Shown here: positions 5,254-48,138 of the stretch, piece after piece
How positions within the stretch are numbered: the first letter of the stretch is position 1
How the letters are laid out: the number at the start of each line of letters is the position of its first letter
Source of the DNA: Methylotenera sp.
GTDB taxonomy: Bacteria > Pseudomonadota > Gammaproteobacteria > Burkholderiales > Methylophilaceae
Direction of reading: 5' to 3'
NCBI RefSeq assembly: GCF_013141425.1
Contig: NZ_JABFRA010000096.1
Location: forward strand, 1 to 51,299
DNA: 51,299 bases
Translations under genes and position numbers: made by a program
The notes under the pieces: generated by a model
Seen by the model: only the letters and a program-made list of their open reading frames with translations
Database searches by the model: none
Told to the model about the DNA's origin: nothing

Positions 5254-6009
5254 TTATAACTTCATTGCGTGAAAACCCGTTTCATCACGCCTTAAGTAAC
5301 TACCTTGTTCATACCAATCGCCTAATACCCACCTTGTAATAGTGTGACCATCTAATTGAATTTGATGCTGATCTGGCCTGTGGGTATGACCATGTATCAA
5401 AATTTCTGGGTATTGAGTCTTTCTTAATAGTTGATTTACCGCTTGCTGATTCACATCCATAATTAACATGGATTTCTGAGATTTTTCTTGTTCACTTTGT
5501 AGGCGAATCGTTTCAATCTGTTTTTTTCTGGATTGTAATGACTGATTTAGAAAATTATTTTGCCATTGCGGGTCTCGTACTTGCAGGCGAAAAGCCTGAT
5601 AATCGATATCATCCGTACATAAGTGGTCGCCATGACTCAACAAGGTGCGAACACCCTGTAAATCAATCAAAATAGGGTCATCCAGTAGAGTCATTTTTGC
5701 GGCATCGCAAAATTGTTGTGAGATAAGAAAATCGCGGTTGCCATGCATGAAATAGATTTTTACGCCAAAATCGGCCAGCGCTCGAAAAGCATTCACAATT
5801 AGTTGGTGGTCTTCAAAATCGTCATCGCCCGCCCAATATTCAAATAAATCACCTAATATATAAAGCGCATTGGCCTGTATGGCGATGGTTTGTAGAAAAC
5901 TTAAAAACGCGGCAGTGATATGTGGTCGGCTGGCGCATAAATGCAAATCGGAAATAAATAAGTCGGGCTTGTACAAGCTCTGTCCTAATTTATTTCCGAT
6001 ATTCTTCAT
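5254..6009 (-). CDS. lpxH: UDP-2,3-diacylglucosamine diphosphatase LpxH
   Basis: LpxH hydrolyses UDP-2,3-diacylglucosamine to lipid X and UMP in lipid A synthesis, at the inner face of the inner membrane. The calcineurin-like metallophosphoesterase motifs are complete: ISDLHL, LGDLFEYWAGDD, MHGNRDFL, LSHGDHLCTDD and HGHTHRPD. The frame extends to a TTG at 6027; I prefer ATG 6009, giving 251 residues, close to the 240 of E. coli. Neither start has a clear ribosome site. It is convergent with the HD-GYP gene, with only 18 bases between them and no terminator. The next minus-strand gene upstream is ppiB. Confidence 0.93.
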   Translation of the reverse strand: MKNIGNKLGQSLYKPDLFISDLHLCASRPHITAAFLSFLQTIAIQANALYILGDLFEYWAGDDDFEDHQLIVNAFRALADFGVKIYFMHGNRDFLISQQFCDAAKMTLLDDPILIDLQGVRTLLSHGDHLCTDDIDYQAFRLQVRDPQWQNNFLNQSLQSRKKQIETIRLQSEQEKSQKSMLIMDVNQQAVNQLLRKTQYPEILIHGHTHRPDQHQIQLDGHTITRWVLGDWYEQGSYLRRDETGFHAMKL

Positions 6010-6067
6010 GTTAAACCGAGCAATCAATTTGAATTGGATTGGCTGAACTGTTTAACGCTAGCATTAA

Positions 6068-6559
6068 TTAACTTCGCGTTGCTTTTTCAATGACTACATT
6101 ATCTACGGGGACATCTTGATGGCCTTTACGGCTGGTAGTTTTGACTTTTTTGATTTTATCTACAACGTCTGTACCTGCTGTTACCTTACCAAATACACAG
6201 TAACCCCAGCCACTAGTAGTAGGTGCGCTGTGGTTTAAAAAGTCATTATTGCCTACATTGATAAAAAATTGGCTGCTGGCAGAGTGTGGGGCAGAGGTGC
6301 GCGCCATGGCAATGGTGTATTGGTCGTTAGCTAGGCCATTATCCGCTTCATTCTTAATTTCATCTGCAGATTCTTTTTGGTTCATGGTCGCGTCAAAGCC
6401 TCCGCCTTGAATCATAAAACCATCAATGACACGATGGAAAATGGTGCCGTCATAAAAGCCATTGTCGACATATTGTAAAAAGTTTGCGACAGTAATCGGC
6501 GCCTTTTCGGCATCGAGATCTAAAGTAATTTCGCCAAAGTTTGTTAGTAATTTAACCAC
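6068..6559 (-). CDS. ppiB: peptidyl-prolyl cis-trans isomerase B (cytoplasmic cyclophilin)
   Basis: A 163-residue cyclophilin that speeds proline isomerisation during protein folding. It has the catalytic [15 protein letters not shown] block, then the [14 protein letters not shown] and GYCVFGKV motifs of the family. There is no signal peptide, so it is cytoplasmic. The start is GTG at 6559, supported by an AAGGA seven bases upstream. It lies 34 bases downstream of a second cyclophilin gene with a signal peptide, so the two form a cytoplasmic/periplasmic pair, probably in one transcript running on to lpxH. Confidence 0.93.
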
Positions 6560-6593
6560 AAAATATCCTTATTAATAGTGTTGTAAATGTAGC

Positions 6594-7181
6594 CTATAAA
6601 GGCTGGGTGTTCAGTTTAACTTGATGAATCAGAATCGTGGATTTTGGTACGTTGTAATATGGACCCACATTAATGGTTGGGCTAATGCCGATTTCGCGCA
6701 CAACATCCATACCTTTTAATACCCGACCAAATACGCAGTAACCGATAGATTCAGCGTCAGGACCTTGATAATTAAGTGGTACGTTATTTTCCAGGTTGAT
6801 AAAAAATTGCGCCGTAGCGGAATCTGGGTCACTGGTTCTTGCCATGGCAATGGTACCTGGCTCGTTGCGTAAGCCATTGCCAGCTTCGTTGACGATGGGC
6901 GCTAATGTTTGTTTTTCCGACATGTCAGCATTAAAGCCACCACCTTGAATCATAAAATGATCAATCACACGATGAAAAATTGTCTCTTTGTAGAAACCGG
7001 ATTTTACATACTGTAAGAAATTAGCCACGGTTTTGGGCGCTTTTTCGGGATAAAGTTCAACAATAAAATTACCGTGGTTGGTCTCAAAAACCACTTGAGG
7101 GTTAGCGGCCAGTGCGGCGGGGCTTGCAAAGGTAGAGGTCGCAAAAACTGCCAGCATTAAAAAAGAGTAGAGTTTACGCAT
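6594..7181 (-). CDS. ppiA: periplasmic peptidyl-prolyl cis-trans isomerase A (cyclophilin)
   Basis: A 195-residue cyclophilin with a clear signal peptide: basic MRK start, hydrophobic core, and cleavage predicted after the Ala-rich ASPAALA at about residue 26. The catalytic motif [15 protein letters not shown], the AMARTSDPDSATAQFFINL block and GYCVFGRVLKGMDVV identify the family. It should act on periplasmic and outer-membrane proteins. The ATG start has an AAGGA seven bases upstream. Probably co-transcribed with ppiB and lpxH. Confidence 0.93.
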   Translation of the reverse strand: MRKLYSFLMLAVFATSTFASPAALAANPQVVFETNHGNFIVELYPEKAPKTVANFLQYVKSGFYKETIFHRVIDHFMIQGGGFNADMSEKQTLAPIVNEAGNGLRNEPGTIAMARTSDPDSATAQFFINLENNVPLNYQGPDAESIGYCVFGRVLKGMDVVREIGISPTINVGPYYNVPKSTILIHQVKLNTQPL

Positions 7182-7269
7182 GTGCTTCCTTAAAATTTAA
7201 GCGCTAATTTGAGAGAGTTGAAATTTTGCTACGAGGGTTTGGCTAATTTTTAATAACGCTTAAATGTCA

Positions 7270-8520
7270 TTAGGCTGCACCTTCGTAAATGATTTTCCAA
7301 GCATTGCCTTCCTGAATCCAGTATTGCCGTTTTTGCATTTTATTGGCTAAGCTGGGAGATTTGAAATCTTGTGTGAAATCAACCACTACAACTTTTTTAG
7401 CGCTGGCGTTGTCTGAACGATTATCGGTGGTTGGGTAGGCAAACATACTGATATTAGACAAGCTAATATCGACTTTAGGTTTGGCGGCCTGTACTTTGAA
7501 TTTATGTGCTGACCATTTTGGTAAATCGATTCCGTCACTTGAAAAATCTTGTGAGTAATGTGAAAGGTATTTTGGCGTATCTTGCGCTTTCCAGTCATTG
7601 AGCCAGGCTCTCATGGCGGCCTTTAATGCTTGTTCATCGTTATCAGCACTATCTGCATCTTTCCAAGTTAAGTTGTTGGCAATGACAACTGGCGTTTTGC
7701 CAGATTGTAAAACAGGAGAAAGTGCTTTTATATCTTGATTGGTCAGTACTACGCATCCATCGCTAGCATTTGGTGGGCGGCTGTAAGTGTTGCTGGGCGT
7801 TCCGTGCAGCCATATGCCTGAGCCACTTCTATTAAATCGAGAATCCCATTCATTGGGGTAATTAAGTGGGTAAGCGCCATCACCATACATGTCAGCCAGC
7901 GGCTGTGTTAGTTTTGGTTTAGCAAAATAAACACCAATCGGCGTGCGTTTGTCGCCTTCAGCCTGTTTGTTTACCCCATTTTTCCCTACGGTGACATAGT
8001 AATCAGCGATATAACTGAGGCTATCGCCGTTATTTTTGTACAGGTACAAACGTGATTTATCAGTATCAACCACAATGATGTGTGTTTGCTGCTCGCTAGG
8101 TGCTAATAAAAGATTGGGTAACTTATCCAAATTTTCGTTTGAAAGATAGCGTTCAATGCGCACACGCGCTTCAGCTTGTAAATCTTTTACCTCATCGGAT
8201 TTGTTGATATTGGCATTACCAAATGCCTGCAAGTGCTGTGCCTGCGCCATGAGTAAGTCACCGCGTACTAAATAGGCTAATTTAAAGTTTGGAATTTTGT
8301 TGATTAGTTCATCAATGGTATTTAACGCTTGCTGGTTTTTACCTTGGGTAATTTCCAGCAAGCTTTTTACCAGCAAGTTTTCTGCTAAACCAGTCAACTG
8401 GTTCAATTTAGGCTTAGGCAGTAAATTACCTAAATTATAGCTATTGACTGCCGTAGCGTTCCACGGCAAGAGTGTAATCGCCGCCAATATGATATAGCTT
8501 AGTGTTCTATTTAAAACCAT
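7270..8520 (-). CDS. L,D-transpeptidase (YkuD) with TPR-like N-terminus and NTF2-like C-terminal module
   Basis: A secreted cell-wall enzyme of 416 residues with a signal-like N-terminus. A helical TPR-like part (about 40-130) precedes the YkuD L,D-transpeptidase domain (about 145-285), which has HG at 239-240 and the catalytic motif SDGCVV with Cys at 256. Such enzymes form 3-3 crosslinks in peptidoglycan or attach proteins to it. The last 110 residues (about 305-416) form an NTF2/SnoaL-like module ending in WKIIYEG. The same kind of module ends the protein encoded just upstream (8624-9715), and the transpeptidase/NTF2 combination resembles the Cds6 family. The two genes are 103 bases apart on the same strand. 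Confidence 0.87.
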   Translation of the reverse strand: MVLNRTLSYIILAAITLLPWNATAVNSYNLGNLLPKPKLNQLTGLAENLLVKSLLEITQGKNQQALNTIDELINKIPNFKLAYLVRGDLLMAQAQHLQAFGNANINKSDEVKDLQAEARVRIERYLSNENLDKLPNLLLAPSEQQTHIIVVDTDKSRLYLYKNNGDSLSYIADYYVTVGKNGVNKQAEGDKRTPIGVYFAKPKLTQPLADMYGDGAYPLNYPNEWDSRFNRSGSGIWLHGTPSNTYSRPPNASDGCVVLTNQDIKALSPVLQSGKTPVVIANNLTWKDADSADNDEQALKAAMRAWLNDWKAQDTPKYLSHYSQDFSSDGIDLPKWSAHKFKVQAAKPKVDISLSNISMFAYPTTDNRSDNASAKKVVVVDFTQDFKSPSLANKMQKRQYWIQEGNAWKIIYEGAA

Positions 8521-42392: not shown

Positions 42393-42968
42393 TTAGTCAA
42401 TTACAGTTTGATTTTTACTTGGGGGCTTGCTTAATTTTCTTTGTAAGCTACGCCTATGCATGTTTAAGCTACGTGCAGTAGCCGAGATATTACCACCATT
42501 CTCGGCCAGCACGCGCTGTAAATGTTCCCATTCTAATCGGTCAATCGTGAGTGGGCTACTCGTCAACTCAACTGCATCATCCCCTGACTTTCTTTCAAAG
42601 GCTGCAACAATATCATCAGCATCTACGGGCTTTGCTAAATAATGTGTTGCACCAAGTTTGATTGCCTCGACTGCGGTAGTAATGCTGGCATAGCCTGTCA
42701 ACACTACAATGCGAGTGCCTGCGTCAAGGCTGCTGAGTTGGCGCACCAAAACTAACCCAGAGTTTCCTGCCATTTTCAAATCTACTAAAGCATATTCAGG
42801 GGCATCTTTTTGTGCAAGCGCGAACGCATTTTCAGCACTCGTTGCAGTAGTCACTAAAAAACCGCGCTTACGCAACGCTGGTGCAAGTACACTTAAAAAT
42901 TCTTTATCATCGTCTACCAAAAGTAAGGTCGGTTTTTCGTCAGATGAATTCATAATAATTTTATTCAT
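42393..42968 (-). CDS. regA: RegA/PrrA-type redox response regulator
   Basis: A 191-residue response regulator. The receiver domain has the acidic triad DDD at 19-21, phospho-acceptor Asp63 in ALVDLKM, Thr in VLTGYAS and Lys in AKP. The C-terminal Fis-type helix-turn-helix (about 158-180, GGNISATARSLNMHRRSLQRKL) is the DNA-binding part and is diagnostic for the RegA/PrrA/ActR family. ATG 42968 has AAAGGA seven bases upstream. The sensor kinase gene lies 10 bases upstream in the same operon. Likely targets are the GCGnCA-N3-TGnCGC boxes found nearby. Confidence 0.9.
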   Translation of the reverse strand: MNKIIMNSSDEKPTLLLVDDDKEFLSVLAPALRKRGFLVTTATSAENAFALAQKDAPEYALVDLKMAGNSGLVLVRQLSSLDAGTRIVVLTGYASITTAVEAIKLGATHYLAKPVDADDIVAAFERKSGDDAVELTSSPLTIDRLEWEHLQRVLAENGGNISATARSLNMHRRSLQRKLSKPPSKNQTVID

Positions 42969-42978
42969 TTATTTTCCT

Positions 42979-44298
42979 TTAACTTTTCACCATCAATTTG
43001 GCCAGTGGTAGTTTTACAGTAGTGAGCACGCCGCCTTCCGCGTGATTGACTAATTTGAGTTCGCCCTCATAACGTCCCAATGTGGTTTGAGTTAAATACA
43101 GCCCTAAACCCATGCCTTGCTCATTTTTTGAGGTAAAAAAAGGCTTGCCTAGTTGTTTTTCGATTTCAGCACTCAAGCCCTTGCCAAAATCTCTGATAGC
43201 GATGTTCAGCATTTTTTCATTCCAATTGGCGTTCAAAAGTACGCGCTCGGGCGATTCGTCTGCCGCGTTATCAAGTAAGTTCTGGATGGCCTGAGTCAAT
43301 GTTCTATCCATGTGAATCATTGGATTAAGTGGATTTTTTGTAAGATTCACCACTAGCTCAGTTGCAGGGCGCGTATCTCGCCAGCGTTGAATGGCATCCT
43401 CTAAAAAATCTGAGAGTGGCAAGCCTTGCCCCTCGTCCGCTCGAGCTTGTCCCGCGTTACGCGTAATTGACGATAGAATTTCCTTACAGCGAGATATTTG
43501 ATTCCGTAACATTTGCAATTGATTTAATGTTTCAGGATGGTTTTGAAAGTCATTCGATAGTTCTTTGCTAATCACAGCCATGGTGGCCAATGGCGTACCT
43601 AGTTCGTGTGCGGCACTGGTTGCGAGAGTGCCAAGTGCTAACATACGTTCACTTTCTAAAGATTTTTCTCGGATGGTTGCCACAATGCGGTCGTAATCAC
43701 GTAGGCTTTGACCGATGCGGGTGACAAAAAACGCAATAATACCCGCACTGACTACAAAGCCTAGCCACATACCTACCAGGTGAATGTCAAGCGATTTTCC
43801 TGCCACATAATGCATGTGTAAGTGTGAAAGAGGAACATAATAAAACACCAAAATAGAATAAAACGTGACGGCTGTTGCGCTAAGCAGCCAAGCATATTTT
43901 CTTCTCAATGCAACCGCTGCCACAGTAAGCGGTAATAAATACATCCACACCAGCGGATTGCTGTAGCCGCCCGTAAAGTAAAACAGCACAGTAAGTGCAA
44001 TTAAATCTCCCAGTAGTTGAAATGACAGCTCCCGATCGCTGACATTGCTATGCCTCCTTAAGCGCAGCATGGTGATGAGGTTAAGCAATAACATGCCGCC
44101 AACTGCAAATGCAATTGGTAGTTTAGGCAGTGGAATGCGCAGATAAAACAGCGCCAACGTGGCTGCAAGCATGAAGGTAATCATCACATTGCGTAGTAAA
44201 AACAAGCGCTGCATATTTCGGCGTGAGGGATTTTCCAGCGCGTGTTGGTGGAGAGATTCTAGCAATAGTGAGTGATTTTTGGCAGACATAATAGGCAT
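42979..44298 (-). CDS. regB: RegB/PrrB-type redox sensor histidine kinase
   Basis: A 439-residue membrane kinase with about six helices in residues 30-195. The RegB quinone-site motif GGxxNPx appears as GGYSNPL (110-116). The H-box is SAAHELGTPLAT with phospho-acceptor His231, and the conserved redox-active Cys lies in ISRCKEIL (Cys271). N and G boxes follow (NLLDNAADESPE, DFGKGL, GMGLGLYL). RegB relays respiratory redox state to RegA. It starts at ATG 44298 or 44289; neither has a good ribosome site. It diverges from the cytochrome gene pair at 44490. Confidence 0.92.
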   Translation of the reverse strand: MPIMSAKNHSLLLESLHQHALENPSRRNMQRLFLLRNVMITFMLAATLALFYLRIPLPKLPIAFAVGGMLLLNLITMLRLRRHSNVSDRELSFQLLGDLIALTVLFYFTGGYSNPLVWMYLLPLTVAAVALRRKYAWLLSATAVTFYSILVFYYVPLSHLHMHYVAGKSLDIHLVGMWLGFVVSAGIIAFFVTRIGQSLRDYDRIVATIREKSLESERMLALGTLATSAAHELGTPLATMAVISKELSNDFQNHPETLNQLQMLRNQISRCKEILSSITRNAGQARADEGQGLPLSDFLEDAIQRWRDTRPATELVVNLTKNPLNPMIHMDRTLTQAIQNLLDNAADESPERVLLNANWNEKMLNIAIRDFGKGLSAEIEKQLGKPFFTSKNEQGMGLGLYLTQTTLGRYEGELKLVNHAEGGVLTTVKLPLAKLMVKS

Positions 44299-44326
44299 TA
44301 TATAGAGATTTTATCGCTTTAGAATG

Positions 44327-44340
44327 TGACATATTGTCGC
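44327..44340. promoter_or_regulatory. RegA-like dyad box 1a, upstream of regB
   Basis: TGACATATTGTCGC; on the minus strand GCGACA-ATA-TGTCA, almost identical to the box at 47411-47424. Its reverse-strand flank TGACGC also matches the flank of that box. It is centred about 35 bases from the regB start and would overlap the -35 region of a regB promoter with TAAAAT at 44313-44308, so autoregulation is possible. A further half-site GCGACA lies at 44356-44361. Confidence 0.6.
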
Positions 44341-44370
44341 GCGTCAGGGGGCCGCGCGACAAGTAGCCGC

Positions 44371-44384
44371 GCGACATCATGTCA
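44371..44384. promoter_or_regulatory. RegA-like dyad box 1b, upstream of the cytochrome gene pair
   Basis: GCGACA-TCA-TGTCA, the same dyad with the same 3-base spacer. A possible -10 (TAATAT, 44409-44414) begins about 32 bases from its centre, the spacing expected of an activator bound next to RNA polymerase. Confidence 0.6.
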
Positions 44385-44464
44385 CTTCCGCAACATTTTT
44401 TTTAGTTTTAATATCCTGCCAGTTTTACGTTCAAATCCATTTTTGTATTTTAAGGGGAGTAAAA

Positions 44465-44497
44465 ATGAAGCGCTGTCAGGAGGAATATCATGTTTGA
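44465..44497 (+). CDS. possible 10-codon leader peptide overlapping the cytochrome gene start
   Basis: ATG at 44465 has an AGGGGAG ribosome site six bases upstream. It opens a 10-codon frame (MKRCQEEYHV) whose TGA lies 5 bases inside the main gene beginning at 44490. The main gene's own AGGAGG site lies within this short frame, so translation of the two could be coupled. It could equally be chance. Confidence 0.35.
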   Translation: MKRCQEEYHV

Positions 44498-45884
44498 CTA
44501 TCCGATTTTTGAAATGCCGTTTATTGGACATCGTTTGCTATTTGCATTTGATGCGATTTTGCATGTGTTTATCTCGCATGGTGCTGCAGTGGGCGGCAGT
44601 ATTATTTTGGCACTCACCCAGTGGCTCGCCATTAAAAATAACGACCATAAGCTAGATGCACTTTCTTACAAAATTTTATTTACGTTTTTTATTTTAGCTA
44701 CTGCCGTTGGTGCGTTGACGGGTATCGGTATTTGGATACACATTAATATCATCAACCCTGCTGCGATTGGTGCGCTACTTCGCGTATTCTTCTGGAAATG
44801 GTTTATTGAGTGGATTGTCTTTAATGCTGAGATGATACTCTTACTGTGGCTGTTCCTGATATGGAAAAAACATCCGCTTGGCACACAAGGTAAGAAAAAA
44901 GTCTTTAATTTGGTTCTATCTTATGCGGTTGCTTCATGGCTCACCATGGCGATTATTACAGCGATTTTAGGCTTTATGATGACCCCAGGTAATTGGTTGA
45001 AATCATACTTCCCAGCTGAGCCAGATTACATGGCAGCGCTGTTCAATCCGTCTTGGATTCCTTCACTTGGCTTCCGCACGTTCTGGTCAATTGCTTGGGC
45101 AGCGGCTATGGCGATGTTGCTGACTTGGTTTTTCACTAAAAAAGATTTGGAACTACGCCAAAAAGCCATGCGTTTATTCGGCACGGTGTTGTTGGTCTGC
45201 ATTCCATTTTTTGTGTTGTTTGGCGCTTGGTATTACGCACAGTTTCCACAAGCCGCCAAAGACTTATTTTGGATGGGCGCGATTACACGTCGTTTAGCGG
45301 CACACCCTGAATATGCCACATATTTAATAGTTGCACTTTCAAGCATGGTATTAATTGGCGCGGTTTCTTTATATACCAAACCAAAACACGCACCTGTGTT
45401 TTTAGCGGTGATGATGTTAATCGGCTCAATGGGCTTGATTGGTGAGTTTGAGCGCGTGCGCGAATTTGTGCGTAAGCCGTACATCATCTACGACTACATG
45501 TATGCCAATGGCGTGCGTGTGGCCGATGTACCTTACCTCAACAAAACGGGCTACTTAAAACACGCTGCGTTTGTGCCGCCAGAGTTCCGTGAGGTGAACG
45601 AGCAAAACAAACTGGTGGCAGGTAAATATCTCTATCAAATGCAATGCCGTTATTGCCACACGACCAATGGTATTAACTCAGTGAAAGCGCGTACCGCTGG
45701 CTTGAGTGAAGAGGCAATCTATATTCGTATCGGTTCATTAAACTCACCCGCTACGCCGTTTATGCCGCCGTTTACAGGCACTGATGCCGAACGCAAGGCA
45801 TTAGCTGCCTATTTAGCTTCACTGGCAACGCACGATAAACCTGCGCTCGCTTATCAAAAACAATTAGATGAGGTGAAAAAATGA
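44490..45884 (+). CDS. CydA-like membrane protein fused to cytochrome c domain, subunit 1
   Basis: A 464-residue inner-membrane protein with about eight helices (residues 15-310) and a C-terminal cytochrome c domain. Helix 1 reads RLLFAFDAILHVF, matching the CydA R-x-x-F-A-x-x-A-x-x-H pattern, so His25 corresponds to the haem b595 ligand of cytochrome bd. Glu107 and Glu114 (FIEWIVFNAE) resemble the Glu pair near the CydA haems. No obvious Q-loop is seen, and the R-x-x-H motif of CydA helix 5 is missing here but present in the next protein. The cytochrome c motif is CRYCH (386-390), with a likely Met ligand in PFMPPF (Met425). Strong AGGAGGA ribosome site. It overlaps the next gene by 4 bases. 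Confidence 0.75.
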   Translation: MFDYPIFEMPFIGHRLLFAFDAILHVFISHGAAVGGSIILALTQWLAIKNNDHKLDALSYKILFTFFILATAVGALTGIGIWIHINIINPAAIGALLRVFFWKWFIEWIVFNAEMILLLWLFLIWKKHPLGTQGKKKVFNLVLSYAVASWLTMAIITAILGFMMTPGNWLKSYFPAEPDYMAALFNPSWIPSLGFRTFWSIAWAAAMAMLLTWFFTKKDLELRQKAMRLFGTVLLVCIPFFVLFGAWYYAQFPQAAKDLFWMGAITRRLAAHPEYATYLIVALSSMVLIGAVSLYTKPKHAPVFLAVMMLIGSMGLIGEFERVREFVRKPYIIYDYMYANGVRVADVPYLNKTGYLKHAAFVPPEFREVNEQNKLVAGKYLYQMQCRYCHTTNGINSVKARTAGLSEEAIYIRIGSLNSPATPFMPPFTGTDAERKALAAYLASLATHDKPALAYQKQLDEVKK

Positions 45885-47230
45885 CCGATTTTAGAATCAT
45901 TCCTGGTGACATTCCGTTGCCATTGCCCACCATGGGGCTGGAGTTCATGGAACCATTTTTCCACGGTCTGTTGATTGTGGCTTGGGTAGTGCATATTCTG
46001 TTTATTAACGTGTTGCTGGGGGCGTCGCTTGCCTCAGTATATTTCAATAGTAAAGGGCATAAAGAGAAAAATCCAATCTATGACCGAGTGGCCTACTTGC
46101 TCACCACACCTGTAACCATTTCAGAGAACATGGGCGCGCTATGGGGGGTGGCACCGCTCTTGCTAGTGAGTATATTGCTTACGCCTTTGTTTTACTCGTC
46201 ATCTATTATGATTTCGCCGCATTGGTTGCATATCATATACGGTAACGTGGTGGCGTTCTTGCTCTCGTATTTGTATAAATATACTTGGCATACGCTAGAG
46301 CATCGCAAAACCTTACACATTTTTATTGGTACAGTTGGAGTAGCGTTGTTCTACACCCTTCCATGGGCATTTATGGCTAACGTGCAACTCGCTATGACAC
46401 CAAGCACTTGGACATACACCACTCATTTTTGGGACGCGCTACTACGCGCGGATACATTCTTCCGCTTGGTGCACTTTTACTTAGCCACTTTTGCAGTAAC
46501 AGGCGTGTTTATGTTGGTGTATGGTATGTACAAACGCAAAAGTGATAATGCAGAAGACCGTGAAGCAGGTGTGGTGCTTACCCGTACAGGTAAAACATGG
46601 TTCATTATCCCCACTGTGCTTAACTTCTTTGTAGGCCCATTGGTGCTGTTTAGCTTTCCTGATTACGGTATTGAAGCTTTTTTTGAAAATGGTTATTTCT
46701 GGGGCATCCTCCTCACCGTAGCTTTAGCACTATTTTCGCTATACCTATTATTGAAAGACTTTTTCAATGATGACCTACCTGCAAAACGTGTGTGGACGGT
46801 GGTTGCAGTAATGGTTGTTGCTATTCTTTCAATGGCTAGCTTACGCCACGGTATGCGTATGGGCTTGGTTAAACCTGTGTTAGACGCCTCACACGCTAAA
46901 ACAGAACGCTTTCAAAGAGAATCACTCGCAGCGTTTGAAGAAGCTAAAAATACCCCTGCAACGCCAGTGGCAACACAAGCCAATGTGCACGCAGGTCAAT
47001 CTTTGGCAGAAAAACATGGTTGTTTAGCTTGTCACAATGCAGACATCAAAGTGGTTGGCCCAGCCTACAAAGACGTAGCGGCTAAAGCTTACACGGCAGA
47101 CCAAATTGTGGAATTGGTTAAAACACCCAAACCAGAAAACTGGCCAGGTTACATGCCAATGCCACCCATGCCGCAAGTGCCTGCTGAAGATGTTAAGCAG
47201 ATTGCAGAATGGATTAACGGCTTAAAGTAA
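45881..47230 (+). CDS. CydA-like membrane protein fused to cytochrome c domain, subunit 2
   Basis: A 449-residue inner-membrane protein with about eight helices (residues 28-325) and a cytochrome c domain at the end (CLACH, 381-385; likely Met ligand in YMPMPPMP). Helix 1 carries His38 (VAWVVHILFINVLLG), aligned with the CydA helix-1 His. The stretch FFRLVHFYLATFAVTG (His198) closely matches CydA helix 5, whose His binds haem b558. The Glu pair of CydA is replaced. Together with the preceding protein it would rebuild the full residue set, as in CydA-CydA'-type heterodimers. Substrate could be oxygen or another acceptor, with electrons arriving through cytochrome c; this is inference. Confidence 0.73.
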   Translation: MTDFRIIPGDIPLPLPTMGLEFMEPFFHGLLIVAWVVHILFINVLLGASLASVYFNSKGHKEKNPIYDRVAYLLTTPVTISENMGALWGVAPLLLVSILLTPLFYSSSIMISPHWLHIIYGNVVAFLLSYLYKYTWHTLEHRKTLHIFIGTVGVALFYTLPWAFMANVQLAMTPSTWTYTTHFWDALLRADTFFRLVHFYLATFAVTGVFMLVYGMYKRKSDNAEDREAGVVLTRTGKTWFIIPTVLNFFVGPLVLFSFPDYGIEAFFENGYFWGILLTVALALFSLYLLLKDFFNDDLPAKRVWTVVAVMVVAILSMASLRHGMRMGLVKPVLDASHAKTERFQRESLAAFEEAKNTPATPVATQANVHAGQSLAEKHGCLACHNADIKVVGPAYKDVAAKAYTADQIVELVKTPKPENWPGYMPMPPMPQVPAEDVKQIAEWINGLK

Positions 47231-47395: not shown

Positions 47396-47424
47396 GCGTC
47401 ACATTGACGCGCGACAATTTGTCA
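47396..47424. promoter_or_regulatory. two adjoining RegA-like dyad boxes upstream of the DUF2244 gene
   Basis: GCGTCA-CAT-TGACGC (47396-47410) is a perfect dyad and is followed without a gap by GCGACA-ATT-TGTCA (47411-47424). Both have the same 3-base spacer. A consensus TATAAT at 47450-47455 begins about 32 bases from the centre of the second box, the same spacing as box 1b to its putative -10. Confidence 0.65.
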
Positions 47425-48102: not shown

Positions 48103-48138
48103 GCGACAATTTGACGCATTCCGTAAAGTGGCTATATC
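48103..48138 (+). promoter_or_regulatory. RegA-like dyad box overlapping the promoter of the TonB receptor gene
   Basis: GCGACA-ATT-TGACGC (48103-48117) is a full dyad with a 3-base spacer. It overlaps TTGACG (48111-48116), which sits 16 bases from TATATC (48133-48138). A protein bound here would cover the -35, which suits repression or close activation. Confidence 0.6.

Follow-up and report, generated by a model that had tools for sequence, protein, structure and literature searches.

Two overlapping genes in the stretch of 51,299 nucleotides analysed here (the window, from Methylotenera sp.) encode a pair of proteins, A and B, that would together form a CydA-CydA' heterodimer reducing O2 with electrons from a periplasmic cytochrome c. 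Judging from sequence comparison, we put the probability of this reading at roughly 0.7. The genes lie next to a divergent regulatory locus, and the features discussed below are as follows.

42393..42968, minus strand: response regulator of the RegA/PrrA/ActR family (NF033791, 186.1 bits, cut-off 250)
42979..44298, minus strand: redox histidine kinase of the RegB/PrrB/ActS family, divergent from gene A (NF033792, 257.1 bits, cut-off 350)
44326..44385: four contiguous 15-bp units resembling RegA/RegR boxes (GYGNC-N5-GNCRC), between regB and gene A
44490..45884, plus strand: gene of subunit A (464 aa), CydA-like, eight helices and a C-terminal haem c domain
45881..47230, plus strand: gene of subunit B (449 aa), CydA' paralogue, eight helices and a C-terminal cytochrome c551-like domain

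Architecture and homology of the two subunits

The two genes share four bases (ATGA overlap), and reading frames, structural models and Pfam agree with the original prediction that each protein consists of about eight helices plus a single haem c domain. The predicted models, which are of low confidence (mean pLDDT 63.7 for A and 65.6 for B), contain eight long helical stretches followed by a C-terminal domain, which in both proteins matches cytochrome c family PF13442 above the cut-off of 27 bits (A, 36.5 bits; B, 27.9 bits). The c domain of B is most similar to cytochrome c551/552 (E 7.1e-15 to 2d0s_A in a phmmer search of PDB sequences). With helix limits set by eye, ten Lys/Arg residues were counted in the presumed inner-side loops of A and likewise ten in those of B, as compared to four and one, respectively, in the outer-side loops (ends and c domain excluded). 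This bias fits an eight-helix plan with both termini outside, so the N-terminus and the haem c domain should be periplasmic. The connection between helices 6 and 7 of A comprises ~24 residues, again with limits set by eye, which bears out the predicted absence of a Q-loop.

By sequence, A is clearly a homologue of CydA. A profile built from 16 A sequences matched CydA of Geobacillus (5doq_A) over helices 1–5 with an E-value of 2e-11, and H25, E107 and E114 of A fell on H21, E101 and E108 (positions counted from the alignment). The A proteins of four relatives exceed the PF01654 cut-off of 26.2 bits (two Zoogloea genomes, 40.4 and 39.7; a sister-clade genome, 28.5; Azonexus, 26.3), two other sister-clade A proteins stay below it (23.7 and 20.6 bits), and A of the window yields no match to this CydA family in Pfam. 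The profile comparison and the relatives' Pfam scores thus back the proposed membership in the cytochrome bd superfamily. In a Foldseek search with the model of A, ranks 1–10 were bd-oxidase chains, taken as CydA by chain letter and length (query-normalised TM-scores 0.44–0.51; seven matches with E <= 0.001). Other comparisons returned little: phmmer searches of PDB sequences with single A and B proteins matched the c domains and gave chance-level hits for the membrane part, and hhalign comparisons with nine close CydA sequences, too shallow an alignment to be of use, yielded low probabilities for A or B (4.2, 1.3 and 1.4).

Homology of the core helices of B to CydA is indicated by its paralogy to A, a sub-threshold Pfam match and Foldseek matches of a low-confidence model. 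It is weaker than for A, given that the B profile matched c domains and no CydA among PDB sequences. A and B are paralogous (hhalign probability 93.9, E 1.6e-7) and neighbours in the loci where both could be read; two co-encoded CydA paralogues, as in CydAA', are therefore present, just as had been predicted. B of the window reaches 16.9–18 bits against PF01654 (E 6.4e-4; cut-off 26.2) and was the sole B to match, relatives' B proteins giving no match in the genomes searched. Ranks 1–9 of the Foldseek search with the B model were again bd-oxidase chains taken as CydA by chain letter and length (query-normalised TM-scores 0.42–0.54; one match with E <= 0.001).

Conserved residues and putative haem ligands

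The motifs named in the original prediction, R15-x-x-F-A-x-x-A-x-x-H25 and E107/E114 in A as well as R195-L-V-H198...T-G and H38 in B, are present as described. They represent more than chance, since H25, E107 and E114 are kept in 26/26 A rows of the alignment and H38 and R195 in 26/26 B rows. Invariant over the A rows (25 different) are H25, H30, E107, E114, R196, E321, R324, E325, R328, K329 and P330, the CxxCH motif and M425, R15 being kept in 14 of the 26. The corresponding residues of B (26 rows, 24 different) are H38, R195, R322 and R326, with H198 kept in 14 rows. The last helix of A carries a further motif, E325-x-x-R328-x-P330, missing from the earlier residue list.

With its neighbours, this motif (E325-x-x-R328-K-P330-Y) resembles E-Y-G-R-Q-P-W of canonical CydA, in which E445 (E. 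coli numbering) is a ligand of the high-spin haem. E325 was placed on E445 by motif spacing and an insignificant HMMER segment (-3.8 bits). Because the last-helix Glu motif is conserved together with H25, E107 and E114, A seems to contain the whole two-haem site of CydA, minus the low-spin His: the putative ligands of two high-spin haems and the helix-3 Glu pair (H25, E107, E114 and E325) each occur in 26/26 rows. The low-spin haem b558 of CydA is held by His186 and Met393. None of the three positions that follow R196 in A is a His, B has H198 at the third position behind R195, and a counterpart of Met393 could be placed in neither protein; the canonical arrangement, with both low-spin ligands on one subunit, is hence not found. 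B would supply the low-spin-type H198 plus H38 and H323, with putative roles in haem binding. The idea that the proteins share the residues of one CydA holds in so far as B adds the H198 missing from A. An even sharing of one active site was rejected, as the putative active-site residues all lie in A, where each of the 26 rows keeps them.

Three putative ligand positions of B differ between the clades, and the difference follows the haem c domain in all but one case, which is a new observation. Positions 165/198/323 are M/H/H in all 13 group-I rows, each with one haem c motif. In the 13 rows of the sister clade (group II), H165 and E323 are constant, position 198 is Phe in 12 and His in one (locus L120). 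Twelve of these B proteins have no haem c motif, and L120 B has two in a fused tail. The same two clades separate at 100/100 in a maximum-likelihood tree built from 25 A proteins; its midpoint root serves drawing only, and a long-branch warning applies, to the L121 sequence above all. The exceptional L120 protein (5867-7684, minus strand; 606 aa) is a fusion of B to a dihaem cytochrome c tail with two CxxCH motifs and mixes the residues of both clades (H165, H198, E323), making it a possible intermediate.

The rewired ligand set of B, the extra haem c domains and weaker Foldseek matches to subunits of alternative complex III would also suit an electron-transfer or quinone-linked module that uses the CydA fold as a membrane conduit and has no terminal reductase activity. 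We regard this as unlikely: a conduit would not need the high-spin ligand set that A keeps in 26/26 rows, alternative complex III ranks below CydA among the Foldseek matches listed, and the window's ORFs include no further catalytic subunit in the operon.

Distribution, candidate donor and acceptor

The pair is sparsely distributed. With protein A of the window as query, and its own genome counted throughout, matches were found in 4/100 genomes of the family, including 2/11 of the genus, and in 9/399 genomes of the order, eight of them spanning the helices. The A profile detected 27/369 genomes of the class (9 helix-spanning, 1 partial, 17 c domain only) and 14/398 of the phylum (3 helix-spanning, 11 c domain only). 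Named carriers (10 loci) include Methylotenera, Methylophilus, Zoogloea, Azonexus and Magnetococcales, and the nearest named relatives, Methylotenera and Methylophilus, agree with the suggestion that the host is a probable methylotroph. Two loci deserve mention in their own right. In L012 (6001-7340; Methylophilaceae, same genome as L004), the reading frame of B is interrupted near residue 85, through sequencing error or decay, so that B lies in two frames next to an intact A. In genome G742 (L121, 3581-9031), a group-I pair with both c domains lies ~1 kb from a gene of the methane/phenol hydroxylase family (PF02332), which we take to be mmoX of soluble methane monooxygenase.

The genome of the window has four COX1-family matches, whose scores and lengths suggest aa3, cbb3 (two contigs) and cNOR. 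No canonical CydA was found in it and CydB (PF02322) had no match. With the short helix 6-7 loop of A, neither the Q-loop nor the CydB partner of a canonical quinol-oxidising CydAB was found. Eleven distinct group-I carriers were considered after G487, G489 and G492 had been dropped as apparent duplicates of G084, G036 and G021. All those searched have haem-copper matches, five of the 11 have full-length canonical CydA above cut-off (G021, G036, G486, G491 and G495), and G490 has a CydA fragment; the need for the enzyme is therefore not obvious in group I. Haem-copper matches were likewise obtained in 10/10 other pair carriers searched.

The sister clade is more telling. Genes for a flavoprotein resembling that of flavocytochrome c sulfide dehydrogenase and for cytochrome c lie beside the pair in 8/11 group-II loci with flanking sequence; two of the eight flavoproteins were checked in Pfam (FCSD_central, E 2.4e-37 and 1e-38) and the other six by tblastn against one of these. 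The flanking stretches of L119, L120 and L124 contain no such flavoprotein gene. Five pair-carrying genomes of family f20 (G118, G164, G207, G245 and G281) were searched for COX1-family proteins and none matched; all five have CydA and CydB. The sulfide dehydrogenase cluster could be read in three of them (L125, L126 and L127), the flanks in G164 and G207 being too short. Electrons from sulfide dehydrogenase would thus arrive on cytochrome c in cells in which no haem-copper oxidase was detected to accept them. This combination is new here; it is the strongest evidence on the two substrates, though indirect, and speaks for cytochrome c as the donor and for O2 as the acceptor. The haem c domains and the donor system encoded in the sister operons accord with cytochrome c as the donor first proposed, while the acceptor, which the original prediction had left open, now appears somewhat less so, with O2 as the candidate to which the sister clade points.

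Mechanistically, a small soluble cytochrome c would dock on the haem c domains, and its electrons would pass via a haem held by B (H198, H38 and H323) to A, whose two high-spin haems would reduce O2 to water. Protons may enter via E107/E114, in keeping with the proton entry proposed for the Glu pair of CydA. Together with the aa3- and cbb3-like enzymes of the window's genome, the pair would bring the number of terminal oxidases to three, and it would serve some redox or oxygen range.

The same electron path could instead end in reduction of NO at the two-haem site of A, making the pair a bd-fold nitric oxide reductase. Several neighbourhoods invite this thought: in the window's genome, NirK and the cNOR-like COX1-family match share a contig, ~4 kb apart; a NosL gene lies ~1.6 kb (L014) and ~0.7 kb (L015) downstream of B; and a bacterial globin gene (PF01152) directly follows B in L008 (7409-7783) and L012 (7358-7777). 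However, NirK exceeds the cut-off in only 2/11 distinct pair-bearing group-I genomes (the search covered NirK among the nitrite reductases), two genomes with the pair, G488 and G036, lack both a NirK match above cut-off and a NOR-sized COX1 match, and the sister operons feature sulfide dehydrogenase rather than denitrification genes in 8/11 loci. We consider an NO-reducing function quite improbable, and an enzyme of denitrification tied to NirK/NOR was rejected for want of linkage across genomes. A quinol oxidase with a cryptic quinol site and haem c domains that merely store electrons, as the top structural matches, bd oxidases known to oxidise quinol, might suggest, is highly improbable in view of the missing Q-loop (helix 6-7 connection of A, ~24 residues) and the cytochrome c donor system of the sister operons.

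Upstream boxes and place among bd-type enzymes

The RegB and RegA assignments are best NCBIfam matches, both below model cut-offs. The window contains seven box matches where 2.09 would be expected, a number seen in 0/100 shuffles. At least two boxes occur in 8/11 regions upstream of A, exactly contiguous in six, and in each of the eight the observed count was reached by 0/1000 shuffles; the upstream regions of L010, L011 and L013 contain none (the stretch was set by length for L010, L011 and L013-L015). In L012, the boxes lie ~100 bp before A and a regB-like gene lies more than 1 kb off, beyond another gene, so here the boxes should serve the pair. An FNR box was sought in the 11 upstream regions and found in none. 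Two further RegA-like boxes are present in the window, at 47396-47410 before a DUF2244 gene and at 48103-48117 at the start of a TonB-dependent receptor gene, and L136 and L138 also have boxes of this kind close to receptor-like genes.

The boxes resemble a published RegR site, GNGRCRTTNNGNCGC (PMC5506826), and the site at R. capsulatus cydA, GTGACAATTTGTCCC, in the available text of a study in which RegA activates cydAB and cbb3 genes in air (PMC5359404). From this likeness we infer that the pair is under RegB/RegA control via the putative tandem boxes that precede A, in the manner of cydAB and ccoNOPQG under RegA in Rhodobacter capsulatus; the boxes with adjacent regBA are new here. Dedication of regBA to the pair was rejected, because RegB is general in the genus (matches of at least 294 bits in 41/52 genomes) and the pair occurs in 2/11 genus genomes searched. 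In two genomes without the pair (L136 and L137), regBA is one receptor-gene block from cbb3 genes, and L141 (G1213, outside the pair search) has a similar layout, all genes being named by eye. In L136 and L137, both of the genus, lspA/ileS-like genes flank regBA on one side; the opposite side has the receptor gene, followed by cbb3 genes. The corresponding gap in G084 holds the pair, next to regB, which suggests insertion or loss there.

Compared with canonical CydAB (5doq, 6rko and others), A has in common the fold, the helix-1 His, the Glu pair and the last-helix E-x-x-R-x-P; the pair differs in having no Q-loop, no CydB found in the genome, haem c domains, and the low-spin-type His on the partner subunit. 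The archaeal CydAA' of Caldivirga, a heterodimer of CydA paralogues that acts as a quinol oxidase, likewise replaces CydA-CydB by two CydA paralogues but is not known to carry haem c domains. Murali, Gennis and Hemp reportedly introduced the names OR-C and OR-N for branches of the bd superfamily in 2021. OR-C is the haem c-bearing branch and is not known to have a quinol site, and the pair shares its CydA-like core, haem c domain and lack of such a site. Judged by these features, the pair is most likely a CydA-CydA' enzyme that uses cytochrome c to reduce O2 and stands close to the OR-C kind.

OR-C is in use as a family name (PMC13189123). Two haem c domains per pair, RegA boxes, sulfide dehydrogenase operons or a ligand switch in B were not found in the available text on OR-C, nor was a CydA pair controlled by RegA or linked to sulfide dehydrogenase found in a literature search that did not extend to the 2021 OR-C paper. 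For the OR-N CydAA' of Nitrospinota and Nitrospirales, two CydA paralogues are proposed to pair, with cytochrome c as proposed donor (PMC10839748, PMC12342949); the Nitrospinota paper states that neither the subunit make-up nor the function of OR-N has been confirmed by experiment (PMC10839748). Like the pair described here, OR-N thus combines two CydA paralogues with a proposed cytochrome c donor. It is a separate subfamily by name, and the available OR-N text does not describe a terminal haem c domain on each subunit.

More tentatively, at somewhat less than even odds, the sequences may describe two CydA paralogues that work as a stand-alone cytochrome c oxidase, B having turned into a haem relay (M165/H198/H323 with haem c versus H165/F198/E323 without, one mixed), with a whole sulfide-to-oxygen chain in most operons of the second clade and RegB/RegA control in methylotrophs. 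The clade-wise ligand switch makes the haem roles testable.

Oxidation of cytochrome c by O2 is the textbook role of copper-containing haem-copper oxidases. If our reading is true, a copper-free enzyme of the bd fold would be a second way to burn cytochrome c with O2. In three f20 genomes, the pair is clustered with sulfide dehydrogenase and cytochrome c genes and no haem-copper enzyme was detected, so standard annotation would leave their cytochrome c without an oxidase. Respiratory chains of methylotrophs and sulfide oxidisers would then have to be read differently from their genomes.
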